Below, piece by piece: positions 21,213-36,766 of a stretch of DNA of 43,328 nt. Position 1 is the stretch's first letter. Every line of letters starts with the position of its first letter. A program made the translations under genes and the position numbers. Below the pieces are notes generated by a model. That model made no database searches, was not told the DNA's origin, and saw only the letters and a list, made by a program, of their open reading frames with translations. The stretch comes from Auritidibacter ignavus. GTDB taxonomy: Bacteria > Actinomycetota > Actinomycetes > Actinomycetales > Micrococcaceae. The DNA is taken from assembly GCF_003703835.1 (NCBI RefSeq), contig NZ_RDQR01000022.1, positions 1 through 43,328 on the forward strand. Direction: 5' to 3'.

Positions 21213-21364
21213 TCTAGGCAAGAAAACGTTCTCCGGCAGTTTTCTCCTTCGCGACCGGTATGACAGAATATAAATGTCCATCACGAGCGGCCGAGAGATC
21301 TGGCTCCGTGACGCCGCAGCAATCTATCTCGAGTGCTAATGCCAGAATCGATGGGAGGAAGAAT

Positions 21365-21958
21365 ATGACAACGTTCACCGAACAGCCCCAGGTGGCCGAA
21401 TCTGAATCCAACCGGGTGTCCGGCGTGTTCCACGGTTCCGCTCAAACAACCGTGAGCACCGGTGCGTACCGTTTCCTGGTTGATGAGCCGGAAGCCTCCG
21501 GTGGAAAGAATGCAGCGCCTAACCCGATGGAATACATTCTCGGGGCCACCAACGGGTGTATTTCCGTGGTGATTGAGGCCAAGTCCGGCACACACCAGAT
21601 CCCGATTCAGGGCATTCACACCTACTCCTATGCCTCCCAGGATTTGGGTGGTCTGGTGGCAGGCCGGGATGTCCAACCTCACTTTCACACCTATCATTTG
21701 GCCGTGTTAGTCCAGACCGATGTGCGCGACGCGGACCGGCTACGGGCCTTCGCCCAGGACGTGGAGCACGCTTGCCCGGCAGCCAACCTGTTGCGAGCGG
21801 CCCAAGGGCTACAGCTGACCGTGCACTGGCAGTTCGTCGACCGGCTGGTTGATCACGATGCCGAGGCCGTGGTGAATCAGGCGCTGGGGGTCCCCAACCG
21901 GAATGAGCCGGTGGACGCTGCCGAACCATTTCTGACGCTCACCAACCCCGATGCCTAG
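21365..21958 (+). CDS. OsmC-family peroxide/thiol protein
   Basis: A 197-residue OsmC/Ohr-fold protein with both conserved cysteines: Cys65 (ATNGCISVVI) and Cys137 (VEHACPAANLL). Members reduce organic peroxides or handle thiols. This one is closer to the OsmC/YhfA branch than to Ohr, because it lacks the Ohr hallmark lead. The start at 21365 is preceded by GGAGGAAGA. Its stop overlaps the MATE gene stop through a shared CTAG. Confidence 0.8.
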   Translation: MTTFTEQPQVAESESNRVSGVFHGSAQTTVSTGAYRFLVDEPEASGGKNAAPNPMEYILGATNGCISVVIEAKSGTHQIPIQGIHTYSYASQDLGGLVAGRDVQPHFHTYHLAVLVQTDVRDADRLRAFAQDVEHACPAANLLRAAQGLQLTVHWQFVDRLVDHDAEAVVNQALGVPNRNEPVDAAEPFLTLTNPDA

Positions 21959-33952: not shown

Positions 33953-34870
33953 TTACAGCTTGCCCGACGTGAACTCCTCCCACTTCTGAGCCGAATCACC
34001 TACGGTGATCGTATCCTCAGGCGCGACCACTCCCCCTCCGAGATAATCCTCATACCACTGCTGGACTTCCTCAGACTGGTACGCCTCCTGTAAGACCTGA
34101 GCCGCCTCGGTATCGCGGAATTCCGGCTTGGCAGCCACGACAACAGTGAAGGGGACCTCAACCTCAGGATTATCCTCGAGAATCAGAGCCGTCTCCTCCA
34201 CGTCATATCCGGCTTCGGCAATCAATCTGACGAACCCGAAGCCCGCGTCAACATCGGGCAAGGACTGCCCCAAGGACTGCTGATCGATTTCGACGAACTC
34301 GAGATCCTTCGGGTTAGCGGTGATGTCCTGTTGAGATAGCGCCGTCACGTCTTTGGACTCATCCACCTCGATCAAGCCTCCCTCGGCCAACAGCTTGAGA
34401 GCACGACCGTTATTGGAGGTATCGACGGGAATGGCAACGGTCGCCCCCTCCGGAAGCTCGTCCAAGGTCTCGTACTTCTCCGAGAAAATACCGGAGGGAG
34501 CGTAATTGACCGAGAAGAGTGGCTCAACATCGGTTCCGTTGTCTTGATTAAACTGTCGCAAATAGGCCTGATGCTGGAAGAAGTTGACGTCGTACTCGCC
34601 TTGGCTCACCGCCTCATTCGGCAACACGATGTCGGTGACATAGGTGGTCTCAAGTGTCCACCCCTCTTCCTCAAGCTGATCTTTCACGATCTCAGTGGGC
34701 TCTTGGAAGGGCGCCGATTCGGTGACGATCATCGAAATGGTCTGTTCCTCATCAACAGTGCTTTGCTGATTAGCTAACCCGCAGGAGGTCAAGGACAGCC
34801 CGGCCAGCAGGCTGGCGCCGAGAGCGCCCCACCGCCGCGAGGGTGCAGTGGTGAGCATGGTGATTGTCAT
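33953..34870 (-). CDS. metQ: Methionine-binding lipoprotein MetQ
   Basis: A 305-residue NlpA/MetQ-family substrate-binding protein. The signal peptide has a lipobox, LTSC, with Cys30 as the lipidated residue. The mature part has the family pattern FFQHQAYLRQFN, the aromatic methionine site region, and VAIPVDTSNNGRALKLL. It should sit on the outer face of the membrane, deliver methionine to MetI/MetN, and be the last gene of metNIQ. AAAGGAAA lies about 7 nt before the ATG. Confidence 0.9.
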   Translation of the reverse strand: MTITMLTTAPSRRWGALGASLLAGLSLTSCGLANQQSTVDEEQTISMIVTESAPFQEPTEIVKDQLEEEGWTLETTYVTDIVLPNEAVSQGEYDVNFFQHQAYLRQFNQDNGTDVEPLFSVNYAPSGIFSEKYETLDELPEGATVAIPVDTSNNGRALKLLAEGGLIEVDESKDVTALSQQDITANPKDLEFVEIDQQSLGQSLPDVDAGFGFVRLIAEAGYDVEETALILEDNPEVEVPFTVVVAAKPEFRDTEAAQVLQEAYQSEEVQQWYEDYLGGGVVAPEDTITVGDSAQKWEEFTSGKL

Positions 34871-34924: not shown

Positions 34925-35590
34925 CTAGGCCAAGCGTTTATCGGTGATGCGCACCAGGCGGTTACCCAGGATTTGCACCGCGCTGACCAGCAACAGCATC
35001 AGCACGATGGCAACCAGCATGACTTCGGTTTCATACCGGTAATAGCCGTAGCGGATCGCGAAGTCCCCGATCCCGCCACCTCCGACCAGGCCGACCATGG
35101 CCGAATACGAAATAAAGGAGACAGTGGTGATCGTGATGGAGCCGATCAGCGCCGGCCGGGCGTCTACCAGCATGACCTGCCGGATGATCTGACCACGGGT
35201 CGCCCCCATCGCGCGGGCTGCCTCGATCGGCCCGGAGCCGAGTTGATTGATGTTCTGTTCGACCAGTCGAGCGAAGTACGGGATGGCATTGACCGTCAGC
35301 GGAACGATAGCCGCCGCTGTGCCGACCGTGGTCCCCACCAGCAAACGGGTGAAGGGAATGATCGCGATCAGCAGGATCAAGAACGGGAATGACCGCACCG
35401 CATTCACCAAAGCCGATATCACCTTATGCAAGTGCGGTGAGGGCGAAATCCCGTCGGGCGCGTGGTTGACCAACCAAATTCCCAACGGAGTTCCGAGCAA
35501 CACCGCAATCGGGATCGCGACCCCGATCATAACGAAGGTCTGCAACAGTGCTGTGGTGAGTTCGGGAAGGAGCTCGAGGATGCGTTCCAT
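34925..35590 (-). CDS. metI: Methionine ABC transporter permease MetI
   Basis: A 221-residue permease with five membrane spans. The coupling loop EAARAMGATRGQIIRQVMLVDARPAL (EAA-x3-G) near residues 134-160 is typical of MetI. ATG 35590 follows the metN stop by 1 nt, showing coupling; a GTG at 35599 is a second choice. metQ follows 54 nt later. Confidence 0.9.
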   Translation of the reverse strand: MERILELLPELTTALLQTFVMIGVAIPIAVLLGTPLGIWLVNHAPDGISPSPHLHKVISALVNAVRSFPFLILLIAIIPFTRLLVGTTVGTAAAIVPLTVNAIPYFARLVEQNINQLGSGPIEAARAMGATRGQIIRQVMLVDARPALIGSITITTVSFISYSAMVGLVGGGGIGDFAIRYGYYRYETEVMLVAIVLMLLLVSAVQILGNRLVRITDKRLA

Positions 35591-35591
35591 C

Positions 35592-36422
35592 TCACTCACC
35601 CACCTTCTGCAGTGCCAACTCCGCGGCCTCTTCCACCACGACAGGAACATCCGGGGGCGTACTCCGTCCCTTCTGTACCGAGATCCCTTCAGAAAGCAGG
35701 TAACGCCCGATCGCGGTCTGAGGCTGGAAGGTTGCGGCCCGCAGGTCATCGGTGGTGAATTGCTCCACGATCGAGCCATGCTCCATGACCGTCACGTCAT
35801 CGGCCAGGGCTTTAATCACTTCCATTTCGTGGGTCACCAGCACAATGGTGATCCCCAGTTGAGCGTTAATATCAGCCAGATATTGCAAGACCGTGGCAGT
35901 AGTGAACGGATCCAATGCCGAGGTTGGCTCATCGCACAACAACACATTCGGCTGGGTGGCTAGCGCCCGCGCAATCGCAACACGCTGTTTTTGGCCACCA
36001 GATAGCTGCGCCGGATAGGCCCTAGCCTTCTCCGCAAGATCCACCAAGTCGAGCGCTTCCAGCGCCCGCCGGCGACGCTCACGTCGGTCTTTCACCCCGG
36101 AAAACGTCAAAGACTGCTCGACATTGGCCAGCGCTGTGTGATTATTGACCAGGTTGAACCCCTGGAAGATCATCCCGATCTGATGGCGACGCTGACGCAG
36201 TTGCTCAGCGTTGAGCTGTGTCAGCTCCTCGCCATCGACCCACACCTGCCCGGCCGTGGGCCGTTCGAGCAGATTGATATTGCGCAACAGTGTGGATTTA
36301 CCGGCCCCCGAAAAACCGATAATGCCATGGATCGAGCCCCGACGTATCTCAAGGCTGACGTTATCGACTGCGGTAATCTCACCACCTTTGAACGTTGTGG
36401 TGACGTGACGCAGAGAAATCAT
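35592..36422 (-). CDS. metN: Methionine ABC transporter ATPase MetN, short form
   Basis: A 276-residue ATPase with Walker A GFSGAGKST near residue 35, the Q-loop MIFQGFN, the signature LSGGQKQRVAIARAL, Walker B VLLCDEPTSALD and the switch LVTHEM. E. coli MetN is about 340 residues and ends in a NIL domain that binds methionine and shuts the pump. Here only about 50 residues follow the ATPase core, so that domain is missing or vestigial. ATG 36422 is preceded by GGAGG 6 nt away, next to a SAM-type riboswitch. Confidence 0.9.
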   Translation of the reverse strand: MISLRHVTTTFKGGEITAVDNVSLEIRRGSIHGIIGFSGAGKSTLLRNINLLERPTAGQVWVDGEELTQLNAEQLRQRRHQIGMIFQGFNLVNNHTALANVEQSLTFSGVKDRRERRRRALEALDLVDLAEKARAYPAQLSGGQKQRVAIARALATQPNVLLCDEPTSALDPFTTATVLQYLADINAQLGITIVLVTHEMEVIKALADDVTVMEHGSIVEQFTTDDLRAATFQPQTAIGRYLLSEGISVQKGRSTPPDVPVVVEEAAELALQKVGE

Positions 36423-36766
36423 AGGAATCCTCCATCGTAGCTGGCATTGGCACCTTTGCCTCATATGGCGGGTTGCCTCGACGTCTTCGAGCCAGGTCTC
36501 TCGGTCGATCTGGATGGTTACCGGGCTAGTCTGACACACCACAATGAGGCTGTCATGACCGCTGTCACATACACGACTTCAGAGATCGACGAGCCCGTTC
36601 AACCTCAATACAGACCCAGAGATGACTCCGTAAGACGCCACACTGCACGCTATCCACAGTCACAATCGGCGGTCTTATCGTGTCCTCAGGAATCGATACT
36701 ATGTTCTACATAACGAATGACAGAGCATATTATCAAACAACTGATCGATGATGGGAGGTGTGCACG
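36423..36766. other. 344-bp divergent region between metN and the HNH gene
   Basis: It holds the SAM-type aptamer (minus strand, 36432-36517) and its upstream promoter, which I cannot place, plus the HNH promoter region. TATTAT at 36728-36733 is a possible -10 for the HNH gene. The A/T content is higher than in most of the window. No additional gene is seen. Confidence 0.5.
36432..36517 (-). promoter_or_regulatory. Compact SAM-I-clan riboswitch (S box) of metNIQ
   Basis: Read on the minus strand, P1 is CCATC (36517-36513) with GATGG (36436-36432). P2 is CGAC/GTCG, then a kink-turn GAAGA and inner GAG/CTC. The P2 loop TGGC can pair with GCCA in GGTGCCAATGCCAGC (36454-36440), the known pseudoknot. 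GGCAACC (36477-36471) opens P3 (ACC/GGT and GCC/GGC). These are the hallmarks of the SAM-I clan. No P4 hairpin is visible between P3 and P1. The 3' arm of P1 shares two bases with the Shine-Dalgarno GGAGG (36433-36429) and no terminator follows. SAM binding should therefore reduce translation of metN. Confidence 0.75.

Follow-up and report, generated by a model that had tools for sequence, protein, structure and literature searches.

A predicted SAM-I-type riboswitch without helix P4 at the metN ribosome-binding site of Auritidibacter ignavus, with similar elements in other actinobacteria

Introduction

The P4 helix counts as a hallmark of SAM-I riboswitches. It stacks on P1 (PMC9580860) and has been described as the helix that carries the receptor for the P2 loop (PMC4316175). 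SAM-I is distinguished from SAM-IV by, among other things, the P4 hairpin of its core, its kink-turn, and the lack of an additional pseudoknot (PMC7270179). In the leader of a metN-like gene of Auritidibacter ignavus, an original prediction made from the DNA letters had placed all core parts of a SAM-I-type aptamer in only 86 nt, with P4 not seen and with P1 taking two bases of the Shine-Dalgarno (SD) sequence. This raises the questions of whether the helix is really missing, to which class such an RNA belongs, and how it could act on the gene behind it. The window analyzed here is the whole 43,328-nt stretch of contig NZ_RDQR01000022.1; positions refer to it.

Results

Anatomy of the metN leader aptamer

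The predicted core was found complete on the minus strand at 36517–36432, so that 36432–36517 is the exact span from the 5' strand of P1 to its 3' strand. P1, kink-turned P2, P3, and the L2–J3/4 pseudoknot of a SAM-I aptamer are all present, and their pairs were checked by script. P1 consists of CCAUC (36513–36517, minus) and GAUGG (36432–36436, minus), P2a of UCGAC (36504–36508) and GUCGA (36478–36482), and P2b of GAG (36498–36500) and CUC (36489–36491), all on the same strand. Between P2a and P2b lies an internal loop of 3 + 6 nt, CGA at 36501–36503 and GAAGAC at 36483–36488 (minus), which contains the GA/GA of a kink-turn (a reading from the letters). The loop L2 has 6 nt (A-C-CUGG), of which CUGG (36492–36495, minus) pairs with CCAG of J3/4 (36441–36444, minus); this is the same register as the TGGC/GCCA originally proposed. 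The 5' strand of P3, GGCAACC (36477–36471, minus), carries SAM-pocket nucleotides and faces GGUGCC (36449–36454, minus) within the P3 3' side GGTGCCAA (36454–36447, minus). An upper P3 hairpin, GCC/GGC, occupies 36458–36469 (minus).

The P4 hairpin is absent. The strand from P3 to P1 has 12 nt, AAU-G-CCAG-CUAC, and holds the pseudoknot strand and a 4-nt linker, CUAC (36437–36440, minus), at the usual place of P4. In the Rfam alignment, the elided P4 part comprises 18 consensus positions as against 2 nt here. A P4 hidden elsewhere was ruled out, since the entire P3-to-P1 strand is only these 12 nt. The last C of the linker, C36437, can pair with G36445 at the place of the canonical U64–A85 pair.

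Class assignment

The Rfam SAM model RF00162 matched the locus at 36429–36520 (minus strand) with 61.6 bits by cmscan, over a gathering score of 44.4 and with an E-value of 4.9e-12 in the search of the window. Our own covariance model R1, built from 52 P4-less sequences (alignment A1), scored 88.2 bits at the metN element, a non-independent score because the sequence of this element is one of the 52 seeds. The SAM-I/IV model RF01725 reached 21.9 bits at the locus, under its cut-off of 41.1, and the SAM-IV model RF00634 (cut-off 38 bits) gave nothing there up to E 10, its six genome matches lying elsewhere. In this covariance-model comparison, which had been proposed along with the original prediction, only RF00162 passed its cut-off.

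The RF00162 score, the P2 kink-turn, the L2–J3/4 pseudoknot, and the SAM-contact nucleotides in P1, J1/2, and P3 agree with SAM-I, and the P4 hairpin of the core does not; of the three features separating SAM-I from SAM-IV (PMC7270179), the element has the two others. Because of the missing P4, we term it a variant with the SAM-I scaffold and not a canonical SAM-I; judged from its sequence, it is a SAM-I-scaffold aptamer minus P4.

That it is instead a SAM-IV or SAM-I/IV riboswitch is very unlikely. SAM-IV is likewise without P4 (PMC6890682), the P3-to-P1 strand appears by eye to be short in both RNAs, and the A. ignavus genome holds four SAM-IV RNAs over cut-off. Against this stand the scores of RF01725 and RF00634, the presence of the SAM-I kink-turn, and the P2 internal loop, which SAM-I/IV does not have (PMC2864571). 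Moreover, no P5 hairpin or PK-2 of the SAM-IV type was found 3' of P1, where the 9 nt to the ATG leave no space for them. Of the four SAM-IV loci of the genome, two scored 18.5 and 10.5 bits with R1, and two remained without a match up to E 1.

The metN locus and its orthologues

The aptamer precedes an ORF at 35592–36422 (minus strand, start ATG 36422–36420) encoding a metN-like methionine ABC transporter ATPase, for which TIGR02314 ABC_MetN is the best family (E 7e-82, 275.2 bits, curated cut-off 499.7), with a match to PF00005. The neighboring ORFs encode a metI-like permease with an uncertain 5' end (34925–35779, minus; NF008049 MetI, E 4.6e-57, 193.2 bits, cut-off 212) and a metQ-like lipoprotein (33953–34870, minus; PF03180, 197.1 bits; TIGR00363, 123.9 bits, cut-off 228.85). 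For the metN, metI, and metQ homologues these are the best families, each under NCBIfam's curated full-protein cut-off. As a target, metN is in keeping with a SAM/methionine signal.

A MetN search in 100 genomes of the bacterial family yielded 17 orthologues with 66–100% identity, including the one from A. ignavus, while paralogues had at most 56%. An R1 match was found upstream of all 17 orthologues (three of these elements are R1 seeds) and at none of the 13 paralogue loci. P1 adjoins the start codon in 11 of the 17; in the other six (L277, L278, L279, L280, L283, and L284), a spacer of approximately 90–110 nt lies between the element and the start. Since the element ends that far before the gene, another output must act in these six leaders; their expression platform appears to differ, while the aptamer has stayed.

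In four loci (L270, L271, L273, and L274), two P4-less elements were observed upstream of metN on opposite strands, approximately 120 nt apart, so a divergent gene may also be SAM-controlled.

Covariation and the SAM pocket

Alignment A1 comprised 52 of 71 non-redundant candidates; the 19 omitted were mostly forms with a long P3, along with L101, L144, and L161, which have an extra base in L2. Its members were chosen by a pattern that fixed the pseudoknot and the linker and are hence invariant there, and for this reason a second alignment, A4, was built from 89 matches (86 distinct rows, 19 of them also A1/R1 seeds). The 82 sources of A4 were pre-selected as P4-less by reading, so A4 informs on the pairings and not on the frequency of P4 loss.

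In A4, 96.7% of the cells of the pairs were paired, compared with 32.8–47.7% after the partners were slid, and changes on both sides occurred in 19 of 29 pairs. When the R1 seeds were removed (67 of the 86 rows left), 96.8% of the cells were paired, with two-sided changes in 18 of the 29. Such changes were found in three of five pairs of P1, all five of P2a, one pair of P2b (middle pair A-U in 72 and G-C in 14 of the 86 rows), and one lower and five upper pairs of P3. In the pseudoknot, 98.0% of the cells were paired and three of four pairs changed on both sides. A relative, L304, has by eye a GUGG/CCAC pseudoknot and a GUG/CAC P2b. At the pair that replaces U64–A85, 78 rows had G-C, three had U-A, and one had G-U, while one row was unpaired and three had a gap; this is a compensatory pattern. 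L2 had 6 nt together with a 4-nt linker in 77 rows; the other nine had a 5-nt L2 and a linker of 2–4 nt, a few of which may be off by one, as the aligning model ignores the pseudoknot. Conservation of the pairings in relatives, the second of the proposed checks, is thus seen both in the metN orthologues and in A4.

The kink-turn was nearly invariant as well: on its 5' side, 84 of the 86 rows had the G and all 86 the A, and on its 3' side, 85 had the G and all 86 the A. The list of SAM-contact positions was taken from PMC6890682, and its mapping onto the A4 columns is our own. Positions 7, 11, 12, 45, 46, 58, 59, and 87 were kept in 86 of 86 rows and the other six in 80–85; within P3, SAM-I positions 44–47 of the 5' strand and 57–59 of the 3' strand were each kept in 84–86 rows. 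U88, which we take to be a contact position, is included in these counts.

The single sequence is not unusual in its folding (z −0.14), and 88 of 200 shuffles are at least as stable. A chance motif was nevertheless rejected on the RF00162 score, which was set independently by Rfam, the conservation at the metN orthologues as opposed to the paralogue loci, and the covariation. A SAM-I remnant, decayed or without function, from which drift removed P4 would be in line with one helix missing and a single sequence of no unusual stability, but it has next to no probability in our estimate: the pocket is near-invariant, P1, P2, P3, and the pseudoknot carry compensatory changes, and the element is kept in all metN orthologues and at seven places of the A. 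ignavus genome.

Further elements in the A. ignavus genome

Six RF00162 matches and seven R1 matches were found in the genome. All seven R1 elements lie at the start of an ORF, with the first start codon (ORF of at least 90 residues) at −8 to +14 nt from the end of the match. One of them is a second P4-less SAM element of the window (21275–21357, plus strand; RF00162 49.0 bits, R1 73.2 bits), which has a very short P3 and a P1 that overlaps a GGGAGG SD; it is followed by an OsmC-like ORF (21365–21958, plus; PF02566, 42.4 bits). Besides the latter, the targets other than metN encode an ABC ATPase, a luciferase-like monooxygenase, two acyl-CoA-dehydrogenase-like proteins, and an AMP-binding enzyme. 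The acyl-CoA-dehydrogenase-like, AMP-binding, and OsmC-like targets are no obvious methionine genes and were counted against our best explanation, a SAM-sensing switch. Some of the target families include organosulfur enzymes.

The seventh element (L247, 1501–1593; C18:101196–101288) precedes an acyl-CoA-dehydrogenase-like ORF and was matched by R1 (46.9 bits) and not by RF00162. Its L2 and pseudoknot strands are deviant, and it may be decaying. Beside the seven P4-less SAM-I elements, the genome contains the four SAM-IV riboswitches over cut-off (contigs C32, C1, and C9; L037–L040).

Distribution of elements without P4

The survey of P4 status covered Actinomycetota. Within the bacterial family, RF00162 matches were present in 122 of 149 genomes. 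P4 was absent in all 56 family elements read among the matches listed, the seven of A. ignavus and 49 others; the latter were the 29 best-scoring loci and 20 more (L248–L267), mostly the longest listed, which were picked to favor finding P4. A parser judged 53 of the 56, and L003, L255, and L247 were judged by alignment. Three further loci that the parser misread or left empty (L229, L217, and L224) were settled by alignment A4, and eight in which it found nothing (L046, L060, L061, L068, L071, L206, L207, and L208) were excluded from all counts. One 'family' element with a 16-nt strand, in L020, is by its sequence not a SAM element.

In the phylum at large, both forms occur. Among its best 30 RF00162 loci, all 25 that the parser could read have at least 23 nt between P3 and P1. 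In a wider parse, this distance was 10–13 nt in P4-less elements and at least 16 nt in the rest. By eye, the two forms coexist within single families of the phylum, namely f9 (L196 vs. L300 and L301) and f42 (L193, L194, L198, and L205 vs. L072 and L302), where L192–L211 were selected partly as short matches. They even coexist within single genomes, one P4-less and one P4-bearing element each, by eye, in G661 (L221/L298), G588 (L229/L299), and G637 (L218/L306). The Streptomyces-like genomes examined retain P4 (L202–L204 and L209–L211). Repeated loss of P4 would be the simple reading of this comparison by eye; lateral transfer between lineages may be an alternative.

A pattern scan of named genomes returned at least 119 stretches, 90 of which had an R1 match (44 of 60 and 46 of 59), including 31 that had supplied R1 seeds. 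An earlier motif test, in which 93 of 158 pattern matches were judged real, was superseded by this model test. Among the matches listed, 60 of the 80 titled stretches matched R1, and all 60 were from actinobacteria, including Arthrobacter, Kocuria, Micrococcus, Nesterenkonia, Yaniella, Cellulomonas, Actinomyces, Kineococcus, Rhodococcus, Nocardia, Lentzea, and Amycolatopsis. The other 20 (Pseudomonas, Thalassospira, Planctomycetales, etc., and three actinobacteria) had no support from the model and look like chance pattern matches. The missing P4 is thus not a peculiarity of the metN leader and is systematic across many actinobacterial SAM-I RNAs. When RF00162 was run on 20 P4-less elements, 18 were over the cut-off, L220 was just under it (41.1 bits), and the L247 element was not matched.

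A different feature was observed in 11 loci (L088, L095, L109, L122, L126, L139, L142, L153, L180, L185, and L212), where the P4-less element is directly followed by similar small ORFs of 24–28 residues. These are Arg-rich and mostly contain Cys, e.g., MGTTRMLTRRRVVDQCRRTASACRRHLV in L095; the titled members belong to Lentzea, Amycolatopsis, Actinokineospora, and Haloechinothrix. Related small ORFs are present in L144 and L161. The small ORF resembles one for a leader peptide controlled by a SAM switch.

P1 and the ribosome-binding site

The SD of metN, GGAGG, lies at 36429–36433 (minus strand), and the ATG follows 6 nt on. The strand GAUGG of P1 ends in the first two G of this SD, as had been predicted, and 9 nt separate the end of P1 from the ATG. 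An intrinsic terminator would not fit into these 9 nt, so the element is most naturally read as acting on translation. SAM-I riboswitches that place the ribosome-binding site in the 3' side of P1 are established (PMC2258182).

We compared start codons (ORF of at least 40 codons) located 2–30 nt after P1 with those in a control window 60 nt further on. P4-less elements of the family had such a start codon in 50 of 71 cases vs. 28 of 71 in the control, and other P4-less elements in 72 of 116 vs. 39 of 116, with a peak of the spacing at 9–10 nt. No excess was found for P4-bearing elements (26 of 65 vs. 32 of 65). The 'other' P4-less and the P4-bearing sets were gathered with loose expressions and may include false members.

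Release of the SD was not seen in folding. In ViennaRNA ensembles of the metN leader, the SD was mostly paired in every state, including the one with P1 free, as it joins the first codons in a hairpin (about −7 kcal/mol). In 33 leaders in which a GGAG overlaps P1, the median probability of the SD being unpaired was 0.26 when P1 was free, against 0.33 when it was formed; at a margin of 0.1, opening of P1 raised the accessibility of the SD in three leaders and lowered it in 15. These folds leave out the pseudoknot, the kink-turn, and the ligand. Steric blocking by the aptamer, folded next to the SD, would work without pairing of the SD. The predicted action on translation is thus backed by the overlap and the short distance to the start, and the part of it that calls for exposure of the SD on P1 opening did not come out of the folding.

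An aptamer acting instead on transcription, through termination, Rho, or RNA stability, would accord with this lack of SD release and with the spacers in six of the 17 metN orthologues; Rho and RNA decay are compatible with the sequence. We regard this reading as improbable for metN itself, however, as the 9 nt before the ATG are too short for an intrinsic terminator, the single terminator-like site found lies upstream of the aptamer, and the start-codon spacing of 9–10 nt recurs among P4-less elements. A promoter scan restricted to the sigma-70 consensus revealed no convincing promoter for the metN leader.

Discussion

The metN element is very probably a SAM-sensing, P4-less SAM-I riboswitch that closes P1 on the SD of metN and works as a translational OFF switch. 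The sequences show the parts of the aptamer, their conservation, and the overlap with the SD; that the RNA binds SAM, turns metN off, and does so at translation is what we infer. On the SAM-I scaffold without P4, the 4-nt linker, whose last C would pair with the G before the pseudoknot strand, would close the three-way junction. At high SAM, the pocket would close and P1 would be held shut; as P1 ends inside the SD, ribosome loading would be blocked, and the methionine importer metNIQ would go down. At low SAM, P1 would open and translation could start.

With SAM-I (S-box, RF00162), the P4-less elements have in common P1, the kink-turned P2, P3, the L2–J3/4 pseudoknot, and the SAM-contact nucleotides. 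They differ in lacking P4 and hence the coaxial P1/P4 stack (PMC9580860), in the 6-nt L2 with a 4-nt linker and the G-C in place of U64–A85 that most rows of A4 show, and in often standing right at the start codon. In SAM-I, the U64–A85 pair is part of an (A85-U64)-A24 triple (PMC9580860). With SAM-IV (RF00634), they have in common the core, the pseudoknot PK-1, and the lack of P4; SAM-IV has P5 and PK-2 in place of P4 and a turn unlike the SAM-I kink-turn (PMC6890682). With SAM-I/IV (RF01725), the SAM-binding core is common; a SAM-I/IV sequence, 4L81 (PMC5393176), appears in our reading to have a hairpin in the segment that links P3 to P1. A functional parallel is the SAM-I riboswitch of Xanthomonas campestris, also a SAM-I aptamer that acts mainly on translation and on methionine genes, whereas it has a P4 hairpin and a separate anti-SD in its expression platform (PMC7270179), and in the metN element P1 itself overlaps the SD.

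The RNA class is not new, since the existing Rfam SAM model finds most P4-less elements. In the open-access literature, we found no account of a SAM-I lacking P4, and the form with the missing helix seems to be undescribed as far as searched. The suggestion of a new compact variant therefore holds for the missing helix and not for the class, as Rfam already scores the element as SAM. We tentatively consider, at somewhat less than even confidence, that the recurrent loss of P4 marks a distinct three-way-junction subclass of actinobacterial SAM-I, in which the P1/P4 stack is replaced by the longer L2, the short linker, and a G-C pair instead of the A24-U64-A85 triple, with P1 set directly on the ribosome site. 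If this is true, the combination of a SAM-I kink-turn with a SAM-IV-like P4-free core would be a natural intermediate between clan members that are told apart by P4.

The natural P4-less set suggests that the pocket and the pseudoknot can work without P4, and it blurs the line to SAM-IV that is based on this helix. It also offers minimal SAM-I aptamers, mostly of less than 100 nt, and indicates that weak Rfam SAM matches in actinobacteria can be real.
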